From IMG/VR virus record IMGVR_UViG_3300043399_000877, positions 62,001-126,000 of that record: DNA of 64,000 nt; one strand, 5' to 3'. The stretch comes from a virus. Below, in pieces: positions 1 to 22,534 of the stretch (its first letter is position 1; every line of letters starts with the position of its first letter). Under the pieces are notes generated by a model, which made no database searches, had not been told where the DNA came from, and saw nothing but the letters and a program-made list of their open reading frames with translations. Made by a program: the position numbers and the translations under genes.

Positions 1-2359
1 CTTCGATAGCATATGTTGCAGATTTGTCGGGATCTTCTTTTATTTTTTCTTCGCCTGCTGGTATCCTAACATCGAAATACTTTGCATATCTCATATAATT
101 GCGTGTATTTTTTGCTATAGCTGCTTCGCCCTTTTCAAATCTCTTACCCAGCACATGTATCGCATACCAGGTTGCCTCTTCTGAATCAGTTGCAAGTGCG
201 GCTTCGCCTTCGGGGAAACTGTGAGCATCATGATCGAACGTCTGCAAATAATATTTTGCAAGTCCAGCGTTGTCGGCAAAACGCATACGCATCTTTTTAA
301 AGTCATAACCGACATCAAAATACGCTGCACTCTCGGCGGCGTTCATTAGGTCACTTATTTTAGAATTTGGATCTTTTACCAGCTTATCTAGATTGTCTCG
401 AATTTCTTTCTTAACTGTTGGTGAAATACTTGCAAGTTTGGTAGCCCATTCTTTACTGCGCTTTATAAGTGCCATTTGCAATTTGGGTGATGCAAGTTCA
501 AGACTACCGTCTTCGTAGTCCCACACCCGCTGATTCTTGAGGTTCTTCTTAAACCAACGCTCGAATGCCACCCGGTCGTAAGACTTTCCGGGACCGATTT
601 GTTTTGGTAAAACTGGAGCATTTTCAGAGCGGTTGCGTTCGCTGTTGTATATTTTTTCAATTGGAACAATGTACTTCCCGGAAAAGAACACAGCCTGGTG
701 TGGTTCGTTGCTGTGTATAACACCGGCGCCCCGACTATCGGTTGCGTACTCGTACCCGAGTATTCGCATAATGCGATTCCATTCAACTGTTTTTTTAGGT
801 GCAGGCTTGCTGCGTCCTTTTTGCCATTCAGTGATCATGTTTTGTACTGGGTCTGCTGATTCTTTTATCTCAATTCCCATTGCTGCGGCTTTTGATATAA
901 ATTGTTCAACATCATCGGCTGAAACATTATCAGCTGGAAATGCTGCGTCAAGCTCAGCGTATGTTATAACTCCGGTTTGTTTGCCTTTTTTAAGTAACTC
1001 GTTCTTTTTGTCGACACCGGGTGCCGCCGGAGCGGCGGGGGTGTTGCCCAACGGTTCAAACTCAGTCTCCGGTGGTTCTGGTGCTGTTGGGGTGTTAGGT
1101 GCGTAATCCGGATTAGCTTTATAAAAGATCGCAAACGGTCGTTTTAACACGGTGCCATTTTCTTTATTTTTAAGAACAACACCATCCTTCTCGATACCGA
1201 TAACAGTAAAAAGTTTCTTGCCTTTTGGGCTGGTCGCGTTGGCATCATCACCGATTTTAAATTTTAATCCGGTTGTGTCTTTGACGTCGTTTCCGTAATC
1301 TTTGTTGGGATCATACAACTCAACATCTCCGTATGTTAAATCGAAGACCTCAGGGCCGTTATCCATGTCAATTTCTAAAGAACCCGATGATTTATATGCA
1401 TAAGAAACCGTTCCGGTTTTTTTATAATATTCATGACCGGGTTTTGTCACTATAACTTTATCACCATGGTGTATTAACTCCGTTTTTGGTAGGTTTTTTG
1501 GAGGCGCAGTCTTTTTCAGGTATTTGAGCGGTACCTCGATGTAATTGCTTTTAGGAGAACCAACCAAAGCCACTGATGCATGTGGCTGATCCATGTTATA
1601 GTCGTTGCCGTCAAAATGCATGCTCACAACCTTAGCCACAACTTTATCCGGTGCTTGGCTGTTGGACCAAGGTTTACTGTAATCCGTAAAAGCTGGGTTT
1701 ATTTCAACAAAATCACCCTTGCCAAAGTCGACCTTTATATCGCCCATTTTTTTCTTCTTGGCTAATTCCGCACCCATTACGCGAGTCACGTTCCACAACT
1801 TTGATATGTCAGGCCCGGCCTTGTCTTCTTCAAAACTAAATGCATTACTTAATGCTTCTTTTTCGATACGACTATATTCTTCTGGATCAAAGCCCTGTGA
1901 CGTCATATACTGACGCAATTTAGCCATATCGCGTTTGAACTGTTGTTCGGTATATCTTGCAATATCCAGTCCTGCATTGGCGTTACGCGGTGTAAACACC
2001 CATACGAACGGTAAGTCGCCCATGTATTCAACTGCGCTCGCATTACCGGTATTTTTAATTACTCTGAGAACATGCGATAGCGGATAGCTATAAACACCCA
2101 GGGGTGTATCGTATCCGCTGCGTGGGTTTACACCGATCTTTTCTATACCAGTGTAACTCACATAAAGGTCTTCCACCGGTGGATATGTTCTACCACGACT
2201 GTCAGATGATCCGGCCAACCGTTCGTATTTTAATAATTCTTCAGCAGTGTTTTCCTGATACTTTTTTAATTCATCATAATCTGCGGACCTCTGATCTAAT
2301 CTTGGTTGGCCCTTCTCACTGCGGCGGCGCTCTACAATTCGGATATCACGATATTTCAT
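1..2359 (-). CDS. Giant modular late protein with sigma-70 region 1.1-like segment (partial, C-terminus off window)
   Basis: Open from ATG at 2359 to the window edge, at least 786 residues with no stop. The start MKYRDIRIVERRRSEKG matches the starts of the two downstream paralogs and overlaps the stop of the 2356-4968 gene (ATGA). Residues about 50-110 hold the shared module (SYTGIEKIGVNPRSGYDTP). Two SH3/KOW-like stretches with lysine-rich linkers follow. Residues about 450-498 (GKQTGVITYAELDAAFP, then MGIEIKES) resemble sigma-70 region 1.1, the DNA-mimicking domain of RpoD. Next come the shared NEPHQAVFFSGKY module and WPxGE-type repeats (SFPEGEAALA, RFEKGEAAIA). The function is unknown; late expression suggests a virion or injected protein. 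No membrane segment is seen. Confidence 0.85.
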   Translation of the reverse strand, partial: MKYRDIRIVERRRSEKGQPRLDQRSADYDELKKYQENTAEELLKYERLAGSSDSRGRTYPPVEDLYVSYTGIEKIGVNPRSGYDTPLGVYSYPLSHVLRVIKNTGNASAVEYMGDLPFVWVFTPRNANAGLDIARYTEQQFKRDMAKLRQYMTSQGFDPEEYSRIEKEALSNAFSFEEDKAGPDISKLWNVTRVMGAELAKKKKMGDIKVDFGKGDFVEINPAFTDYSKPWSNSQAPDKVVAKVVSMHFDGNDYNMDQPHASVALVGSPKSNYIEVPLKYLKKTAPPKNLPKTELIHHGDKVIVTKPGHEYYKKTGTVSYAYKSSGSLEIDMDNGPEVFDLTYGDVELYDPNKDYGNDVKDTTGLKFKIGDDANATSPKGKKLFTVIGIEKDGVVLKNKENGTVLKRPFAIFYKANPDYAPNTPTAPEPPETEFEPLGNTPAAPAAPGVDKKNELLKKGKQTGVITYAELDAAFPADNVSADDVEQFISKAAAMGIEIKESADPVQNMITEWQKGRSKPAPKKTVEWNRIMRILGYEYATDSRGAGVIHSNEPHQAVFFSGKYIVPIEKIYNSERNRSENAPVLPKQIGPGKSYDRVAFERWFKKNLKNQRVWDYEDGSLELASPKLQMALIKRSKEWATKLASISPTVKKEIRDNLDKLVKDPNSKISDLMNAAESAAYFDVGYDFKKMRMRFADNAGLAKYYLQTFDHDAHSFPEGEAALATDSEEATWYAIHVLGKRFEKGEAAIAKNTRNYMRYAKYFDVRIPAGEEKIKEDPDKSATYAIE

Positions 2360-4968
2360 TGTTTGTATTTACCCACGTAATGTTTTAAATCTTGTACTTC
2401 AACTTCAGAATGATCACCATACACCCCATATGAAACTATTGCAACTCCGGGTTTCGGGAAAGACGTTATATAACCGGTAAACTTTTCAAGGCTGGTGCCA
2501 TCTCCCCACCAATCTGTGCTGAATTCAACAATATCCCCTAACGAGAAATTCGAAGGTTTTTTGTATGTAGATGAATTAAATTCAAAAACTTCACTAGCCT
2601 TTACTTTCAATGTTTTATTATTGATTAAAAATATATATTCGTAGCTCTCTTCGATGCCTACCAACATACCGGTATCACCGTTTTTGTTTACTTTGTATTT
2701 TTCACCCAACTTGAAACCATACCGATTTGGTTTTATTGGAGCGATAAATTCCGGTGCAGTCTCATCAAGTTCACCACCACGGTGCATGTCATGAATTTGA
2801 ATACGTTTGTTGTTCTCGGGAGTATTAGCTATCATTACAAGTTTCTGTAAACCGCTCATAACTTCTGCATACATGTCTCCGGGTTTAAACTTGCTCAGGT
2901 CATCATATAACGGAAACTTTTTCCTATATCTACGAATGGCCGAGGACTTCAACGCCATAACATCTTCGGCCTCCGGCCAAGGGCGTTGAAGAACGTTGAT
3001 TGCGTAATCTGCCGCATTGTCAGGACTTAGTTGAATTTGTGGTTCGCCCTTGGGGAATGCTTCATGCAAGACGTTGGCTGCATAATTATATGCGGTTTCC
3101 GGGTCTTTACTGATAGCCTCCTCGCCAGCCGGCCAAGGTTTACGCAAAATACGAGAAGCATACCTGTATGCTCGCCATGAATCATCGGCTATGGCAGATT
3201 CGGCGGCCGGCCACGGCCCCTTCTTTATCTGCTCTATGTATTCCATGATATGTTTGGGGTTTTTCAAAAACGCTTCGTCGGACACTTGTATGTCTTTAGG
3301 GTCACCGGTGTAAGCACTTTCCAAATCACGTATAGCTCGGTTAATGTCATATTCATCTTCGCCGCTGTTTACTAACTTGGCCAAACGATTTGCCTTGGCC
3401 TTTACCACAAGGTAACCGTATTTGCTGCTGGCGCCGTCGATTATGGACAACCAAAGGTCGTTGTCTACCACCAACTTATTAATAAGTTTTTCTGATTGTA
3501 TCTTAACAGTATCCGAATACAGTCCATGTATTTGGTCGTAGTTCTTGTAATGCACTTTTAACCAACGTTCAAATGTTATCGGGTCGTATTTTCCGCTGTT
3601 TATTTGATCAGTTGTATAAGGTGGTCTCACTCTGATATTTCTCGCAGTATTGCGAATCTTGCCGATAGGGGTAAAATAGGCACCGGATAGGAATACAGCC
3701 TGTGTTTCTTCACTGGGATGGATTAGTCCGCTGTCATTACGATCTACGATGAAATCATACCCGGCGACTCTCATCAAACGGTTCCATTCGATAATACTGG
3801 TCTTGGCTCTGGTATTTAAGTTGCTTTCTTCGCGTATTATGGATTCTTTTGGAAATGTAAAATATGGGTCTGGTTCCGGTTCAAATTCTAAATCATCAAT
3901 AACATCAAAATCTACAATATTATCATCAGAGGCGTCGGGTTCTTTTTTTGGTTCAGCGGCCGGTGATTTTAGCACTTTTAAGTATTCTGGTGGCAAGTCC
4001 TTTACTTTCGTCGCTTTTCCAAATATACTGATGCTGAGTTCGAAGGTTTGCCCGACTTTGTTTACAACCTCGCCTTCAAATCCTTCAAACGGTCCCTTGA
4101 CAACCTCAACAGTGTCACCAATTTTAGGCATAGCCTCTATATTAAAAGAGGGTTTCGATTTTTCGGCAGGAACATAATCTACCGGAACGCTTGTTTTTTT
4201 TAAATCGTTCAACGGAAGGCCCTGTAATGGGTAACTGTTAAAATTACCAGATCCCGAATATATTTTTACATCAGCAGTGGTTTCAGTTTTGGTTACCACC
4301 ATCCCCACAGTGTCGCTCCAACCGGTGTACTCGGGTAATTCAACAAAGTCACCCAGTTTTATATTGGAGGGGCCGGAGATTTTCGAAGCGTTTTTAAAAC
4401 TTCCAAAGTCTTTGCCTAACACTCGAGTTGCATTCCAGAACATAGACGCATATATGGTTGAGCCACTGGTTTGTTTGGCTGATGACCAAGCTTCTTGTAT
4501 TTTCTGATCGATAAACTCTTCAGTCAATCCCTGTTTTGATAAGAAAGATCTGATCTTTTCCATATCCTCAAGAAGCTGTTCTTCCGTATAGGTCGCAAGT
4601 TCCAATCCGCGTTCGGGATTCTTAGGTGTAAACAACCAAATATACGGTTGCTTGCCCATATACGGAACGTCACTCGGGTCATTAGATGCCTTCATACGCT
4701 TCAAAGCATATTCAAGAGGATAGCAATAAACACCGATAGGAGTATTATACCCGCTCACTGGATTGATGCCAATTTTGTCTAATCCAGTATAGCTTATATA
4801 CAGGTCGCGCATATCTATACCTGAGTCAAGGGCCATACGTTCCAAATCTTTTACAGCGTTTTCACGAAACTGATCTAAATCATCACTGCTGGCCCTGTCT
4901 TTGTGAACTCTGGGTACACCTTTTTCGCTTCTGCGACGTTCTACAATTAATAAATCACGATATCTCAT
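2356..4968 (-). CDS. Giant modular late protein, paralog 2
   Basis: The start is placed at the ATG giving MRYRDLLIVERRR because paralogs start identically and a GATAAATA late promoter lies just upstream. About 870 residues. Modules in order: the SYTGLDKIGINPVSGYNTP domain (about 50-110), a KOW-like loop (IGDTVEVVKGPFEGFEGEVV, about 290), an acidic linker, the HPSEETQAVFLSGAYF module, three WPAGE-like repeats (GPWPAAESAIA, KPWPAGEEAIS, RPWPEAEDVM), and a C-terminal KOW/SH3-like pair. It ends in a 4-nt overlap with the next gene, implying coupled translation. Function is not recognised; it is probably a structural or injected protein. Confidence 0.85.
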   Translation of the reverse strand: MRYRDLLIVERRRSEKGVPRVHKDRASSDDLDQFRENAVKDLERMALDSGIDMRDLYISYTGLDKIGINPVSGYNTPIGVYCYPLEYALKRMKASNDPSDVPYMGKQPYIWLFTPKNPERGLELATYTEEQLLEDMEKIRSFLSKQGLTEEFIDQKIQEAWSSAKQTSGSTIYASMFWNATRVLGKDFGSFKNASKISGPSNIKLGDFVELPEYTGWSDTVGMVVTKTETTADVKIYSGSGNFNSYPLQGLPLNDLKKTSVPVDYVPAEKSKPSFNIEAMPKIGDTVEVVKGPFEGFEGEVVNKVGQTFELSISIFGKATKVKDLPPEYLKVLKSPAAEPKKEPDASDDNIVDFDVIDDLEFEPEPDPYFTFPKESIIREESNLNTRAKTSIIEWNRLMRVAGYDFIVDRNDSGLIHPSEETQAVFLSGAYFTPIGKIRNTARNIRVRPPYTTDQINSGKYDPITFERWLKVHYKNYDQIHGLYSDTVKIQSEKLINKLVVDNDLWLSIIDGASSKYGYLVVKAKANRLAKLVNSGEDEYDINRAIRDLESAYTGDPKDIQVSDEAFLKNPKHIMEYIEQIKKGPWPAAESAIADDSWRAYRYASRILRKPWPAGEEAISKDPETAYNYAANVLHEAFPKGEPQIQLSPDNAADYAINVLQRPWPEAEDVMALKSSAIRRYRKKFPLYDDLSKFKPGDMYAEVMSGLQKLVMIANTPENNKRIQIHDMHRGGELDETAPEFIAPIKPNRYGFKLGEKYKVNKNGDTGMLVGIEESYEYIFLINNKTLKVKASEVFEFNSSTYKKPSNFSLGDIVEFSTDWWGDGTSLEKFTGYITSFPKPGVAIVSYGVYGDHSEVEVQDLKHYVGKYKQ

Positions 4969-4991: not shown

Positions 4992-4999
4992 TATTTATC
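4992..4999 (-). promoter_or_regulatory. T4-type late promoter GATAAATA
   Basis: The minus strand reads GATAAATA, one base from the T4 late consensus TATAAATA, 24 nt upstream of the ATG at 4968. The same octamer is placed similarly before the 7697 and 27888 starts. Confidence 0.7.
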
Positions 5000-5065: not shown

Positions 5066-5371
5066 ATGCATAGAAGCTATATCGGAACATTTCGTTACGA
5101 CCCAAACAACTTATGGAAGAAGATGAGTTTGACCTCTCGCGAGGACGTCTTCAGTCGGCTATCTGATGTACAGCAGCGTTGGTTGGAAAACAATGCGCCA
5201 GACTGGAAGTTTTGGCATGACGAATTCCGACGACTGCATTACCATATCTACTCCGAAACTCCGATATCAGACAGTCGTTTGACTATGGCTGGAATGATAT
5301 TCTATCAGGAAATTCCCAGCCATCCGCCGTTGGGTGAAGAAGCATTGTGGGTTGATGTTTTTAAGAGTTAA
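5066..5371 (+). CDS. Small protein of the Q-x-x-W-L family
   Basis: The ATG at 5066 gives MHRSYIGTFRYD, 101 residues. It contains SDVQQRWLENNAPDWKFW, which resembles the helix seen in the 8107, 8381, 9066 and 9579 products, followed by predicted beta strands and IFYQEI. There is no clear Shine-Dalgarno; the GACCCCGCTGTTG repeat (5044-5056) sits in the leader instead. Its 3' end overlaps the convergent 5361-7697 gene by 11 nt. Function unknown. Confidence 0.65.
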   Translation: MHRSYIGTFRYDPNNLWKKMSLTSREDVFSRLSDVQQRWLENNAPDWKFWHDEFRRLHYHIYSETPISDSRLTMAGMIFYQEIPSHPPLGEEALWVDVFKS

Positions 5372-7697
5372 ATGGTTCAACAGTAAAAGCGTCATCGCCA
5401 TATTCGTCAACTGCATCCTGGTAATCCTGTTGCGTTAACGCTTGTCCGAAGTTCAATCCTGTCAGTCCCGGTTCATCAACAATATATTGGTATTGTTTTA
5501 GTACATTGTAAAACAATGGGTCCAAATTTTTAATCCTAGTCGCCCAACTGGGGTTTTTCTGTATGAGTTTTTGTTGAATATTAGTGGGTGCTACTATTGA
5601 TTTTCTGTCATACTTTGCCGGATTCGGATTTGTTTTGAGAATGTAATCTAGCAGATCTGCGGGCTTGAATTTTTCAGGATCGGCTTCCAGTTCGCGGCTG
5701 TAAGCATCGGCATTGCGTATTTTTTCAACTACAGTGAATGCGGCCTTGCTGAAGAATACCGCCTGAGTGGGTTCATTTTCGTGTATGGTTCCGCTATCGA
5801 AATCAACGGCGTAATCATATTTTAGCACATTTCTCATTAACCAGTTCCATGCAACTGGTGTTCTGGAATTTAACTCGAGGTGACGTGCAGCAAACATTCT
5901 GGTGACATTCCATATTTGGCTGGAGAAAGTTTCTTCATATGCTTGTCCGGCATATTGTTCTACTCTAAAATGAAAATCTTTCTCGTCCATGTAATCGCCG
6001 TTTACGAAGAATTTTTCCATCTTCCAAACGTCGAGTTCATAGTCATCTTTGGTATAATAGTTGGAGCCCAACCACATTGCCTTATCTGGATTGTTGGCTT
6101 TTAACACCCATATAAACGGACTCATGCCGGCAAACGGCACAGCCGCGGCGGTCTTGTAGTCATACATATTTTTGTATATTTCTTTGGTCAACGGGTATGT
6201 ATAAATCCCAATAGGAGTGTCAAACTGACTTCTGGGATTAATTCCTATTTTGTCAACTTTTGTATAACTTATGTAGTAGAATTCGTCTTGGTTTACATAC
6301 TTTTCCAGACTGTCCAGCGCATATGACCTAGGATTCTTGTCAGGATTTCTTCTCGCTTCCGGGACAGATTTGGTCGTGTTTTCAGACAATCCAAAATGTC
6401 GTTGATATTCCTTCCAGATATACGGACTCTGTTTTATAGCTGCTTCACCTGCAGGCCACGGTTGTTTCAAAATCTTTTGGGCATACATCATGGCGGGCCA
6501 ACTGTCTTTTGCTATTGCTGGTTCACCCTTTTTAAATCTTTGCTGATTTAGTGAATGAAATGCATATAGATAAGCACTCATGCCATCTTTTGCTATAATG
6601 TCTTCCAAGTGCGGCGCTGGGCCTTTGTAGAATCGGGATGCTAGATCCTGCGCTGCTCTTGCTTCCCTAACTTCGTTGGAGTACAAAGAAACTTTTGGTT
6701 GACTTTTTATAAATGCTGTGTCAAATTCGTCTCGTTTTTTCTCATCTGACATTAAAATAGTTTTTACATCTGAACCGAGATGCTCCCCGGCTTTACGGTA
6801 ATAATACACTAACTCTTTTCCGTCGAGTTTCCAGAGTAAGAAAACAAAGTTGGCTTCAAGTGCCATTTCTTGACGATCTGTGGGGCCTGGGTCGTTGTAA
6901 TAGCCGTCTTCGTCGTCACCGGTTGGATCGCGTTCGGCATAATCTACTACTTCACCCAAAACTTCAAGCATGTTGTTTTGATTTTTGTCAAACAGCTTGG
7001 CAGTTACCGGATTTTGCTCCATAAAATATCGTGCGTCTTCAACTCCCAGTGGCTGGTCTTGAGAGTCCATAAATTGTCCGCTATCAAAATGGAACTGATA
7101 TTTTTGTTTGCGCTTTTTGTCGTGCCAGATATAAAGTGGACCGTATTTTGTATAATAATTATACATGTTTTTCTTTTCATCGGAGGCCGCCGTACACCAT
7201 TTGGTTCCGCTACCCAATGCACAACTGGCTTCACGAGTCTTGGGAACGGTAAGAATTCCCAGCGGACCGTTGTAAAGCACTTCCGCATCTTTAACTCCGG
7301 CGGCATCTGTATCAGCTGCACCAAGATCGGTATTGCTCAATTTGGCTGCAACATCAGCCAACGATCGCCAATTGTATTGATTTATATCACTATTGATGTT
7401 AAGGCGCTTGTGTTGTCCTTTGGTTTTAACGAATGTTTCGAGATCTGCCCGTAGTTTGTAGATGTCTTCGTATTTGAGCCCGTTCTTTATATATTGACGA
7501 ATTATCCAGACCACATACTGCTTGTTGGCAGTTGGGTCAGCTTCTTCTGCCGCCTGTAGCACTGCCTCCACCGGATCAGCACCCCGACTTTTTAAATATG
7601 CATCGGTCTTTGCCCGGTCAGCAATCGCATTGCTGAAGTTTGCAAGTGTTTTTGATCTGTCATATTCTAGGATTGTTTTGATTTCTTTATATCTCAT
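5361..7697 (-). CDS. Giant modular late protein, paralog 3 with WCTA-type domain
   Basis: The ATG giving MRYKEIKTILEYD is preceded by AAAGGAC and a GATAAATA late promoter, so the longer TTG start is not used. About 778 residues. The N-terminal domain (about 130-230) has GTKWCTAA, YYTKYGPLYIWHDK and KQKYQFHF, a motif set I know from many large phage proteins of unknown role. WPAGE repeats follow (KGPAPHLEDIIA, KQPWPAGEAAIK), then the shared ISYTKVDKIGINP and ENEPTQAVFFSKAAF modules found in both neighbours. It is probably a late structural or injected protein. Confidence 0.85.
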   Translation of the reverse strand: MRYKEIKTILEYDRSKTLANFSNAIADRAKTDAYLKSRGADPVEAVLQAAEEADPTANKQYVVWIIRQYIKNGLKYEDIYKLRADLETFVKTKGQHKRLNINSDINQYNWRSLADVAAKLSNTDLGAADTDAAGVKDAEVLYNGPLGILTVPKTREASCALGSGTKWCTAASDEKKNMYNYYTKYGPLYIWHDKKRKQKYQFHFDSGQFMDSQDQPLGVEDARYFMEQNPVTAKLFDKNQNNMLEVLGEVVDYAERDPTGDDEDGYYNDPGPTDRQEMALEANFVFLLWKLDGKELVYYYRKAGEHLGSDVKTILMSDEKKRDEFDTAFIKSQPKVSLYSNEVREARAAQDLASRFYKGPAPHLEDIIAKDGMSAYLYAFHSLNQQRFKKGEPAIAKDSWPAMMYAQKILKQPWPAGEAAIKQSPYIWKEYQRHFGLSENTTKSVPEARRNPDKNPRSYALDSLEKYVNQDEFYYISYTKVDKIGINPRSQFDTPIGIYTYPLTKEIYKNMYDYKTAAAVPFAGMSPFIWVLKANNPDKAMWLGSNYYTKDDYELDVWKMEKFFVNGDYMDEKDFHFRVEQYAGQAYEETFSSQIWNVTRMFAARHLELNSRTPVAWNWLMRNVLKYDYAVDFDSGTIHENEPTQAVFFSKAAFTVVEKIRNADAYSRELEADPEKFKPADLLDYILKTNPNPAKYDRKSIVAPTNIQQKLIQKNPSWATRIKNLDPLFYNVLKQYQYIVDEPGLTGLNFGQALTQQDYQDAVDEYGDDAFTVEPFNS

Positions 7698-7717: not shown

Positions 7718-7725
7718 TATTTATC
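7718..7725 (-). promoter_or_regulatory. T4-type late promoter GATAAATA
   Basis: GATAAATA on the minus strand, 21 nt before the ATG at 7697, overlapping the region of the divergent early promoter at 7735. Confidence 0.7.
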
Positions 7726-13374: not shown

Positions 13375-13451
13375 GGGGGATTAGCTCAATTGGTTAGAGC
13401 GCCGGACTCATAATCCGTAGGTTGCTGGTTCAAGTCCTGCATCCCCTACCA
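13375..13451 (+). tRNA. tRNA-Met (CAT), CCA encoded
   Basis: 77 nt. Acceptor GGGGGAT pairs with ATCCCCT; D-loop TAGCTCAATTGGTTAGAGC; anticodon loop CTCATAA; encoded ACCA. There is no initiator-type 1-72 mismatch, so it is elongator Met, though a lysidine-modified Ile tRNA also reads CAT before modification. One mismatch each in the anticodon and T stems. Confidence 0.9.
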
Positions 13452-13455
13452 AAAT

Positions 13456-13538
13456 GGCCCCGTGGTGGAATGGTAGACACTGAAGACTTAAAATCTTCTG
13501 CCAATGGCGTGCCGGTTCGAGTCCGGCCGGGGCTACCA
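13456..13538 (+). tRNA. tRNA-Leu (TAA), CCA encoded
   Basis: 83 nt with the long variable arm typical of class II tRNAs. Acceptor GGCCCCG/CGGGGCT, anticodon loop CTTAAAA, T arm GCCGG-TTCGAGT-CCGGC, encoded ACCA. It follows tRNA-Met by 4 nt. Confidence 0.92.
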
Positions 13539-13624
13539 TGTCTTTGACGATCACATCAGTCTTCGACGGAGGATCTTCAAAATAAAGTAAATATTGAAGC
13601 CCGTGGTGTGATCTTCTAAGACAT
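13538..13624 (+). other. Structured non-coding element between tRNAs
   Basis: Two nested complementary pairs, ATGTCTT/AAGACAT and GATCACA/TGTGATC, close an 87-nt segment that also holds CTTC/GAAG. It has no reading frame of note. It could be a processing structure in the tRNA transcript or the scar of an insertion. Confidence 0.45.
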
Positions 13625-13626
13625 TC

Positions 13627-13655
13627 GGTTCCTTAGCTCAGCTGGATAGAGCAAC
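13627..13655 (+). pseudogene. Broken tRNA, 5' half only
   Basis: GGTTCCTTAGCTCAGCTGG and the following GAGCAAC form the acceptor strand and full D-arm of a tRNA. The sequence then switches to a late-promoter octamer with no anticodon arm or 3' half. It looks like a truncated tRNA. Confidence 0.7.
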
Positions 13656-13657
13656 TA

Positions 13658-13665
13658 GATAAATA
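13658..13665 (+). promoter_or_regulatory. T4-type late promoter GATAAATA
   Basis: The octamer lies directly after the broken tRNA and upstream of tRNA-Arg and the 13764 endonuclease gene. Confidence 0.55.
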
Positions 13666-13674
13666 CTTTAAGAC

Positions 13675-13749
13675 GCCTCCGTGGTGAAAGGGATATCACA
13701 CGGGTCTTCTAAACCCAGGTTAGAGGTTCGAATCCTCTCGGGGGCGCCA
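13675..13749 (+). tRNA. tRNA-Arg (TCT), CCA encoded
   Basis: 75 nt. Acceptor GCCTCCG/CGGGGGC, anticodon stem-loop GGGT-CTTCTAA-ACCC, T arm AGAGG-TTCGAAT-CCTCT, encoded GCCA. It would read AGA codons, which are rare in GC-rich hosts. Confidence 0.92.
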
Positions 13750-20153: not shown

Positions 20154-20411
20154 ATGCGGACCTACTACTTCAATCAGTGGGGGCACCATGTCCCCACTGA
20201 GGTAGGTCATTATCGTATGATTCCGGAATGGATCGACGTCGACAACCAGATGTGGAGCGAGCCCTACCATTTGTATGGTGACTTGGATACCGGGATACCC
20301 GTAAACAGTCCGCAGCACTTTATGCATCTGAGATCGATAAAACTATTGACAGAGCTCTGCAATCTTGCTAGGGCTCAAGAGCAACAAAAGGAAACAGCCA
20401 TATGCGTTTGA
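20154..20411 (+). CDS. Small hypothetical protein
   Basis: 85 residues. The promoter of rIIA (20346) lies inside its 3' end and it overlaps the rIIA start by 10 nt. Function unknown. Confidence 0.6.
   Translation: MRTYYFNQWGHHVPTEVGHYRMIPEWIDVDNQMWSEPYHLYGDLDTGIPVNSPQHFMHLRSIKLLTELCNLARAQEQQKETAICV
20346..20374 (+). promoter_or_regulatory. Early promoter for rIIA-like gene
   Basis: TTGACA, 17-nt spacer, TAGGGC (weak -10). Confidence 0.55.
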
Positions 20412-22534
20412 ATACTGCGCCCGAAAATCCCGTCACGATGGGAGGCGTTACTCATGTCAAAGAGTTTGGCATTCGTAACAGCGCCAAAGCCTTCTCGATC
20501 CTGTCGAGCGGCCTCTATGCCAACAAAATCCGAGCAATCATTCGTGAACTCGGCTGCAACGCCCGTGACAGTCATGTGGATGCCGGCCGTGCCGATCTAC
20601 CGTTTGATGTTCACTTGCCTACCAGCTTGGGCCCTTACTTTGCCATCCGCGATTACGGGACCGGTCTCACGCACGACCAGGTGTGCAAAATCTACACCAC
20701 CTATTTCGAGAGCACCAAGACCGAAAGTGACGACTTTATCGGCGCGCTGGGCTTGGGCAGCAAAAGCCCGTTCAGTTACACCGACAACTTCACCGTGACC
20801 GCCATCCGTGACGGCATCAAGGGCATCTATTCGGCATTCATCAACGACACTGGTGTGCCCAGCGTGGCGCTGATGCTGCAAGAGCCCACGGATGAACCCA
20901 CTGGCGTTGAAGTTCGTTTCGCGGTTGAAAACCGGTATGATTTCCGCGAGTTCATTAACGAAGCGAGCGAAGTGTTCGTTCACTTCGCTGTCCAGCCGAA
21001 CTTCACCGGCGCAGAATGCAATGTGGCGGTCCACAGTTACGAAAACCGTGACATTATCCCGGGGGTCCATTCCCGCCTGCACGGTCGCAGCAATGTGGCG
21101 GTGATGGGCACTATCGAATATCCGATCGATTTGCCCAACTACTCGGGCCCGCTGAACGATTTGCAGCATATCGATCGCATGGGTCTCGAAATCCACTTTG
21201 CAATCGGCGAGATCGACTTTCAGGCAAGCCGTGAGGGTTTGCAATACACCAAAGAAACGGTGTCGGCTATCACTGCAAAATATCAGCAGGTGGCTGCGGT
21301 GCTGGATCGGTTACTGGCCGAACACCTTGCCCAGTTTACCAACGTATGGGAACAGCGCCGGGCGATTATCGAACGTAGCCGCAGCACGGTGTGGAGCAGC
21401 TCGATTAACCGCTGGCTGAAAACCAACTCGAATCCGCTGATTGACCGTAGCCATTATGGCAGCATCTACAGCCGAGACATTGAAATCACACCGCAGAAAT
21501 TGCGCGACGATTACAATATGGAAGTCCGCGGTTTCGTTTACGACACCTATCCGCGGCGTGCTCGCGATCACAATCCGGTCAACTACGACGGCAACATTGT
21601 GTTCCGTCCTGACTATCAGATGATGCTGGTGCCCAATCGCAAAAACGAAAAGATCCAGCAACGGTTGAAAAACCATATGAAGGAATCCGGCGGCGACGAG
21701 CGCAAGAACATCTTCTTGTTCACTCCCGCAGATCCGGAGAAGGAGATGGGTTTTGAACGGTTCCTGACCACGGTGCTGTTGGACCCGCCGGCTGACACGG
21801 TTGTCGAAGGTTCGGCTATTCCCAAGGTTGTGCGCCAGGCTCGCGCCAAGTCCGAACCCATCAACATCATGCAGCTTCGCATGGATCAGAATCGCCGGCA
21901 CCAGAGCTACACTTCGGCGATCAGCTGGCAACCGCTGGTGGTTCCGGACATTACCCAGCTGGATCAGAATCAAAAGTTCTACTACCTGAACCTCAAAGGG
22001 TTCGAGGCGTCCATGCAGAGCGGTGACTTGGTCGCTGCAAAGGAAGTCTACCACTATATGCTGAATACCGAATTGGCTGTGCTGAGTGGTGCGCGAGTGT
22101 TTGGCGTTCGCAAAGGCGACATCGAGGCTGTCCGGGCACAGGCGAACTGGATTCCGTTGGAGGACTTGATCAGCGAGACCATCAACGGACTCAGCACCGG
22201 TAAGTTCGTTACTGGCATCATAAAAAGCCTTGACAGCAATGCCCGGAGCGTATATACTCGGGACATTGCAGCCAAGATCGACATCAACAGCCCGTTCCGT
22301 AAGGCTGTTGAGAGTATGGACGTGAGTGAAAACTTCAATGTCTATTACTTGCAGAAACTGGCAAGCATGTTTAACCTCAAACTGGATCTGGAAAAGATGC
22401 AGGCTGATGCGACAAAAGTGATTCGGGAGGTAAACGAGCGTTATCCCCTTATTCGACACCTACGGTATGGCTTCGACGAGGCCGCTGTGGCGGAATACAT
22501 CAACATCGTCGACAACTCGAAGCAAGACATCTAA
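20402..22534 (+). CDS. rIIA: rIIA-like GHKL ATPase-domain protein
   Basis: 710 residues, close to T4 rIIA (about 725). The GHKL nucleotide-binding fold is visible: N-box RELGCNARDSH (48-58), DYGTGL (84-89) and the lid GALGLGSKSPF (114-124). In T4, rIIA and rIIB are membrane-associated proteins that counter lambda Rex exclusion and affect lysis timing. Its adjacency to rIIB confirms the identity. There is no transmembrane segment. An internal promoter at 22230 may drive rIIB separately. Confidence 0.92.
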   Translation: MRLNTAPENPVTMGGVTHVKEFGIRNSAKAFSILSSGLYANKIRAIIRELGCNARDSHVDAGRADLPFDVHLPTSLGPYFAIRDYGTGLTHDQVCKIYTTYFESTKTESDDFIGALGLGSKSPFSYTDNFTVTAIRDGIKGIYSAFINDTGVPSVALMLQEPTDEPTGVEVRFAVENRYDFREFINEASEVFVHFAVQPNFTGAECNVAVHSYENRDIIPGVHSRLHGRSNVAVMGTIEYPIDLPNYSGPLNDLQHIDRMGLEIHFAIGEIDFQASREGLQYTKETVSAITAKYQQVAAVLDRLLAEHLAQFTNVWEQRRAIIERSRSTVWSSSINRWLKTNSNPLIDRSHYGSIYSRDIEITPQKLRDDYNMEVRGFVYDTYPRRARDHNPVNYDGNIVFRPDYQMMLVPNRKNEKIQQRLKNHMKESGGDERKNIFLFTPADPEKEMGFERFLTTVLLDPPADTVVEGSAIPKVVRQARAKSEPINIMQLRMDQNRRHQSYTSAISWQPLVVPDITQLDQNQKFYYLNLKGFEASMQSGDLVAAKEVYHYMLNTELAVLSGARVFGVRKGDIEAVRAQANWIPLEDLISETINGLSTGKFVTGIIKSLDSNARSVYTRDIAAKIDINSPFRKAVESMDVSENFNVYYLQKLASMFNLKLDLEKMQADATKVIREVNERYPLIRHLRYGFDEAAVAEYINIVDNSKQDI
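22230..22258 (+). promoter_or_regulatory. Internal promoter within rIIA
   Basis: TTGACA, 17-nt spacer, TATACT, 289 nt upstream of the rIIB ATG. It is a better consensus than the promoter in front of rIIA. Confidence 0.6.

Follow-up and report, generated by a model that had tools for sequence, protein, structure and literature searches.

Genes at the locus

The window analyzed here is the whole 64,000-nucleotide stretch covering bases 62001-126000 of a 381,886-base record of a T4-like jumbo phage. The terminases of this phage and PA5oct share 57% identity, and the helicases closest to its own come from Sinorhizobium phage Phosso and the PA5oct group. Profile searches of the phage record retrieved neither an RNA polymerase beta subunit nor a sigma region 2 (PF04542), indicating that the phage depends on host RNA polymerase. 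Elsewhere in the window, three tRNA genes (Met, Leu, and Arg) are found at 13375-13749, and a 710-aa frame on the plus strand (20402-22534) has a GHKL-like N-box (IRELGCNARDSH) and appears rIIA-like by eye, with no Pfam match.

Gene A, the subject of this analysis, is a frame at the left edge of the window (2-2359) on the minus strand, as are all features of this locus given below. It opens with MKYRDIRIVERRRSEKG and continues past the edge, leftward to G000:C1:61345, so that the first 786 of its 1004 codons lie in the window; the complete gene (G000:C1:61345-64359, minus strand) encodes a protein of 1004 aa. The neighboring genes B (2356-4968; 870 aa, starting MRYRDLLIVE|) and C (5364-7697; 778 aa, starting MRYKEIKTILE|) encode paralogues of protein A, and the stop codon of B overlaps the start codon of A (ATGA). 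In C, the N-terminal domain has a relative in PA5oct EST35_0205, which is annotated as a structural (virion) protein by ESI-MS/MS. An alignment-based IMG/VR scan provided relatives of the same family at 22 loci from other phages.

Protein A is built on a conserved core, ADP-ribosyltransferase (ART)-like or ejection-related in fold, that is divided by an insert. The first half of the core (residues ~20-205; 1745-2302), delimited from family alignments and the model of a relative, contains the invariant S68 and Y90, and the second half (residues ~521-600; 560-799), which reads VEWNRIMRILGYEY...GVIHSNEPHQAVFF, contains the invariant Q555 of the family alignments. Between them lie ~315 residues (800-1744) that are absent in compact relatives and were delimited by comparison with the paralogues; they comprise a KOW/SH3-like stretch (by eye), a Pro/Ala-rich linker, and a small domain, or bead, matching region 1.1 of sigma-70 factors. 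Repeats of the [W/F]PxGE type, common to both paralogues, start at residue 716 (2-214). The flanks of A on either side of the bead resemble the paralogues, and the 1004 codons form one open frame.

In B, a KOW module replaces region 1.1: the corresponding insert carries a KOW motif (residues ~293-348; Pfam 1.7e-4, slightly below the cut-off; PHROG transcription antiterminator, 2.8e-7) plus an acidic linker. The sister proteins A and B thus hold two RNA-polymerase-associated modules, region 1.1 and KOW, in the corresponding insert. Three other members of the same targeted family (L157, L159, and L164) have a C-terminal Nudix hydrolase domain instead. No region 1.1 match above the cut-off was found among the family records tested; since family members and paralogues do without the bead, the core does not require it.

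A region 1.1 homologue without the rest of sigma

An initial annotation, made from the sequence alone, had placed a region 1.1-like domain in the edge protein at 865-1015 (residues 449-498) and had proposed a profile search and a structure comparison as checks. With hmmscan, residues 453-503 match Pfam Sigma70_r1_1 (PF03979) with an E-value of 5.7e-12 and 45.9 bits (gathering cut-off, 22.5 bits), or 8.1e-12 when full-length protein A is the query. The domain thus stands near the position first assigned, but the match covers 851-1003. It is the sole Pfam domain above the cut-off in protein A, and protein A holds the only Sigma70_r1_1 match of the whole 381,886-base record. A phmmer search against the PDB agrees with the profile, as the 20 sequences listed are RpoD/SigA without exception (best E 6e-4), and so does a shuffle test, in which the A domain and E. 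coli region 1.1 align locally with a score of 100, compared with a mean of 25.8 and a maximum of 55 for 2000 shuffled sequences. The sequence motif of region 1.1, GKQTGVITYAELDAAFP, is retained in the A domain, beyond fold alone.

The structure comparison pointed the same way. When an AlphaFold2 model of the A domain was submitted to Foldseek, the top five matches were sigma region 1.1 chains, the best being 5mww (1.8 A over 50 columns, prob 1.00); the alignment behind the model contained RpoD rows, and the fold match is therefore not fully independent of RpoD. The predicted order of elements, helix-strand-helix-helix-strand, is that of sigma region 1.1. Sigma regions 2, 3, and 4 have no Pfam match anywhere in full protein A, in line with the absence noted in the initial annotation. 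The RpoD proteins closest to the A domain in a GTDB scan with an alignment are ~36-44% identical to it, so the domain is not a stray host fragment. We conclude that the A domain is a genuine homologue of region 1.1, unaccompanied by sigma regions 2-4.

Region 1.1 outside sigma factors

Region 1.1 is usually regarded as private to primary sigma factors. A survey of 100 Pseudomonadota genomes gave 99 matches to region 1.1, of which 98 fall in frames of 505-840 aa, i.e. of RpoD size, and the remaining one in a frame of 101 aa. A solo 99-aa region 1.1 protein is encoded in a member of the Pseudomonadota (L174:5967-6272; G053:C1:2750092-2750265), apart from rpoD and directly upstream of what looks by eye like a class-II DAHP-synthase-like gene.

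Searches for relatives of protein A by tblastn in 50,697 phage records returned none. In the same records, the domain matched rpoD alone, in prophage-like or mislabelled bacterial entries, apart from matches in Erwinia jumbo phages (E 2-3) that are not credible. Neither protein A nor the domain alone had a match in IMG/VR scans, and the domain alone had none in GTDB, where the scan with an alignment ranks gammaproteobacterial RpoD best. No orthologue of A carrying region 1.1 was found in the phage records or IMG/VR, and A is a single sequence.

With RpoD-containing alignments, the IMG/VR matches examined were nearly all host rpoD, located at contig ends or close to them; beyond these, three loci (L113, L117, and L118) constitute a second non-sigma viral case, a protein of up to ~1700 aa unrelated to A. 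In L113 (2664-7751), this protein combines region 1.1 with two FtsK_gamma matches, a HATPase, and a weak WLM metallopeptidase match, and its C-terminal part has no relative in the 50,697 phage records. The neighboring genes at the three loci encode a DNA ejection protein, a transglycosylase-like protein, and a DarB-like protein. The open-licence full-text literature searched contains no earlier report of region 1.1 in such phage proteins, and a jumbo-phage survey does not mention region 1.1.

Fold of the core

In the AlphaFold2 model of the relative L145, the core is a single domain, with pLDDT mostly above 90 at residues 20-236, preceded by 12 disordered residues. Its sole significant Foldseek match in the PDB is chain B of 9k3a, from the cyanophage A4 pre-ejectosome (E 2.3e-4, prob 1.00, 216 columns), with no match at the sequence level. 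Among viral models, the matches include a named PolyVal ADP-ribosyltransferase (E 6e-5). The invariant columns in alignments of 20 family sequences include a Ser, a Tyr, and a Gln (S68, Y90, and Q555 in A), which, judging from the model, would lie on the three strands where ADP-ribosyltransferases have H-Y-[EDQ]. Pfam ART models do not match the core, and no Pfam family name fitted it. Given the S-Y-Q in place of a canonical triad and the lack of a Pfam ART match, the core may be inactive or structural. Protein A presents a multidomain organization, late promoter elements, and a predicted ART-like fold. Outside the window, a frame at G000:C1:37993-38637 starts with MRFYEILFE|GRPGRQKTAIMYHGTS, an N-terminus of the targeting type, followed by what resembles by eye a PARP/KptA-type ART start.

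Predicted packaging signal and late promoter elements

The first ten residues of protein A, MKYRDIRIVE| (2330-2359), are a predicted capsid-targeting sequence ending in a prohead-protease-type (I/L/V)xE site. Family N-termini (MKTFNEFLFE, MKTFSSFLIE, and MKYNEFKIVE, next to MKYRDIRIVE and MRYRDLLIVE for A and B of this phage) are laid out like the T4 IPII/IPIII targeting peptide MKTYQEFIAE, with ~10 residues ending in (I/L)xE, and the Glu at the cleavage-type site is invariant in all 20 family sequences aligned. Targeting in T4 needs no more than the first 10 residues, of which residues 8 and 10 are important to processing (PMC9026906). The phage encodes a T4-type S77 prohead protease (gp21-type; PF03420, E 2.4e-26).

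A motif search placed a T4-like late promoter element, GATAAATA, ahead of B, and thus of the B-A operon (4992-4999), and another ahead of C (7718-7725); the exact TATAAATA is absent near the B-A operon, where this variant is present instead. In the stretches searched by motif, which make up roughly half of the phage genome (profile searches covered the rest), [TG]ATAAATA occurs 43 times, 29 of them directly ahead of open frames, among which are the terminase gene, gene C, and the B-A operon. Permuted control motifs are mostly rarer and less often ahead of open frames, with TAAATATA near equal. The initial annotation had called A a late, possibly injected protein. The promoter elements support late expression, and the targeting sequence, the S77 protease, the PA5oct relative, and the pre-ejectosome-like core support head packaging and ejection, so that protein A is probably both late and injected.

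Proposed role of the region 1.1 bead

The presence of this domain in A suggests that an injected protein seeks host RNA polymerase as infection starts. We see roughly even chances that A is a late, head-packaged, ejected polyvalent protein whose region 1.1 bead docks on host RNA polymerase. The 10-residue targeting peptide would send A into the prohead core, where it would be removed by the T4-type phage protease, and the remainder of A would enter the cell along with the DNA. There, the bead, carried on a flexible linker inside the insert splitting the ADP-ribosyltransferase-like core, would most likely dock on host RNA polymerase at the binding site of region 1.1 or close to it (clamp/downstream DNA channel). 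Docked A could hinder host promoter opening, or bring the core and the other modules to RNA polymerase, a recruitment comparable in logic to that of T4 Alt. RpoD's own region 1.1 already fills that site in the holoenzyme, which argues against docking. Within the holoenzyme, region 1.1 occupies the downstream-DNA channel; supplied as a separate domain, it acts in trans together with E. coli holoenzyme from which it is missing (PMC3778932).

It is less probable, though still worth weighing, that the bead is a generic winged-helix-like module unrelated to RNA polymerase, acting as a spacer, a core-core contact, or a DNA/protein adaptor. The bead of L113 stands among FtsK-gamma winged helices, in a protein where a HATPase is also present, and region 1.1 exists as a solo 99-aa gene in a bacterium. 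However, the bead of A has kept a sequence motif as well as a fold, and family members and paralogues without it indicate that it is dispensable for the core.

A role akin to that of T7 Ocr, with the bead as a DNA-mimicking plug that by itself obstructs the RNA polymerase cleft, seems improbable to us. Homology and the predicted fold of the A domain speak for such a plug, as does the precedent of Ocr, a phage DNA mimic that binds the RNA polymerase cleft (PMC7064336). The charge of the domain does not: over the 51 residues of the region 1.1 core, the net charge is -5 in A versus -9 in E. coli, the tail that follows is basic (+4 versus -10), and only 5 of the 15 acidic positions of E. coli region 1.1 are still acidic. 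The strongly acidic, DNA-mimicking surface and tail are thus not found in the A domain, which weakens the acidic DNA-mimic reading of the initial annotation and favors a role as an address tag for RNA polymerase rather than as a plug acting through charge. Moreover, A would contribute one small bead per 1004-aa virion protein, with presumably few copies entering the cell.

We regard it as quite unlikely that the bead is a decoy titrating a factor that recognizes region 1.1, such as a host regulator or a Gp2-like inhibitor of a rival phage. To our knowledge, no such factor is known for this host, and a low-copy virion protein would be a poor titrant, even if inhibition by T7 Gp2 requires region 1.1, including when it is supplied in trans (PMC3778932). 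That the domain is an artefact, by chance similarity or an assembly chimera with host rpoD, can practically be dismissed: A is a single member on a metagenomic contig, but the E-value of 5.7e-12, the single 1004-aa frame with paralogue-like flanks on both sides, and best RpoD matches only 36-44% identical oppose it.

If the bead docks on host RNA polymerase, as we propose, its occurrence in a predicted ejected phage protein and in an unrelated protein of a viral ejection gene cluster would make region 1.1 a portable RNA-polymerase targeting module. That phages repeatedly adopted it as an address tag directing ejected effectors to RNA polymerase is a tentative extension that we consider somewhat doubtful; if true, the tag brings an ART-like core here and a HATPase/FtsK-gamma protein in another virus, and the virion itself reprograms host transcription ahead of any phage gene expression. 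Such a tag would offer T4-like jumbo phages that encode no RNA polymerase a means of acting on host transcription from the very start of infection. Being small and open to testing in isolation, the bead also lends itself to the question of what region 1.1 does alone.

Comparison with known systems

The A domain shares its motif and predicted fold with region 1.1 at the N-terminus of RpoD/SigA (PF03979), but it is an internal bead that is much less acidic and has neither the acidic tail nor sigma regions 2-4. Like the polyvalent proteins of phages and conjugative elements (Iyer et al. 2017, PMC5512222), A is large and multidomain, with an ART-like core and predicted injection; its core differs from theirs in having no Pfam ART match and S-Y-Q instead of H-Y-D, and neither 'sigma' nor 'region 1.1' appears in the text of that paper. 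Chain B of the cyanophage A4 pre-ejectosome is similar to the core in fold and not in sequence.

T4 Alt and IPI-III have an N-terminal targeting peptide with a prohead protease site, as predicted for A, and are head-packaged and ejected, as A would be; Alt, moreover, acts on host RNA polymerase. T4 Alt is an R-S-E transferase, unlike the core of A, and we know of no description of region 1.1 in Alt or IPI-III. T7 Gp2 and Ocr, unlike A, are made after infection, have unrelated folds, and are not region 1.1 homologues; they are nevertheless phage proteins that act at the same RNA polymerase channel as the one proposed for A.
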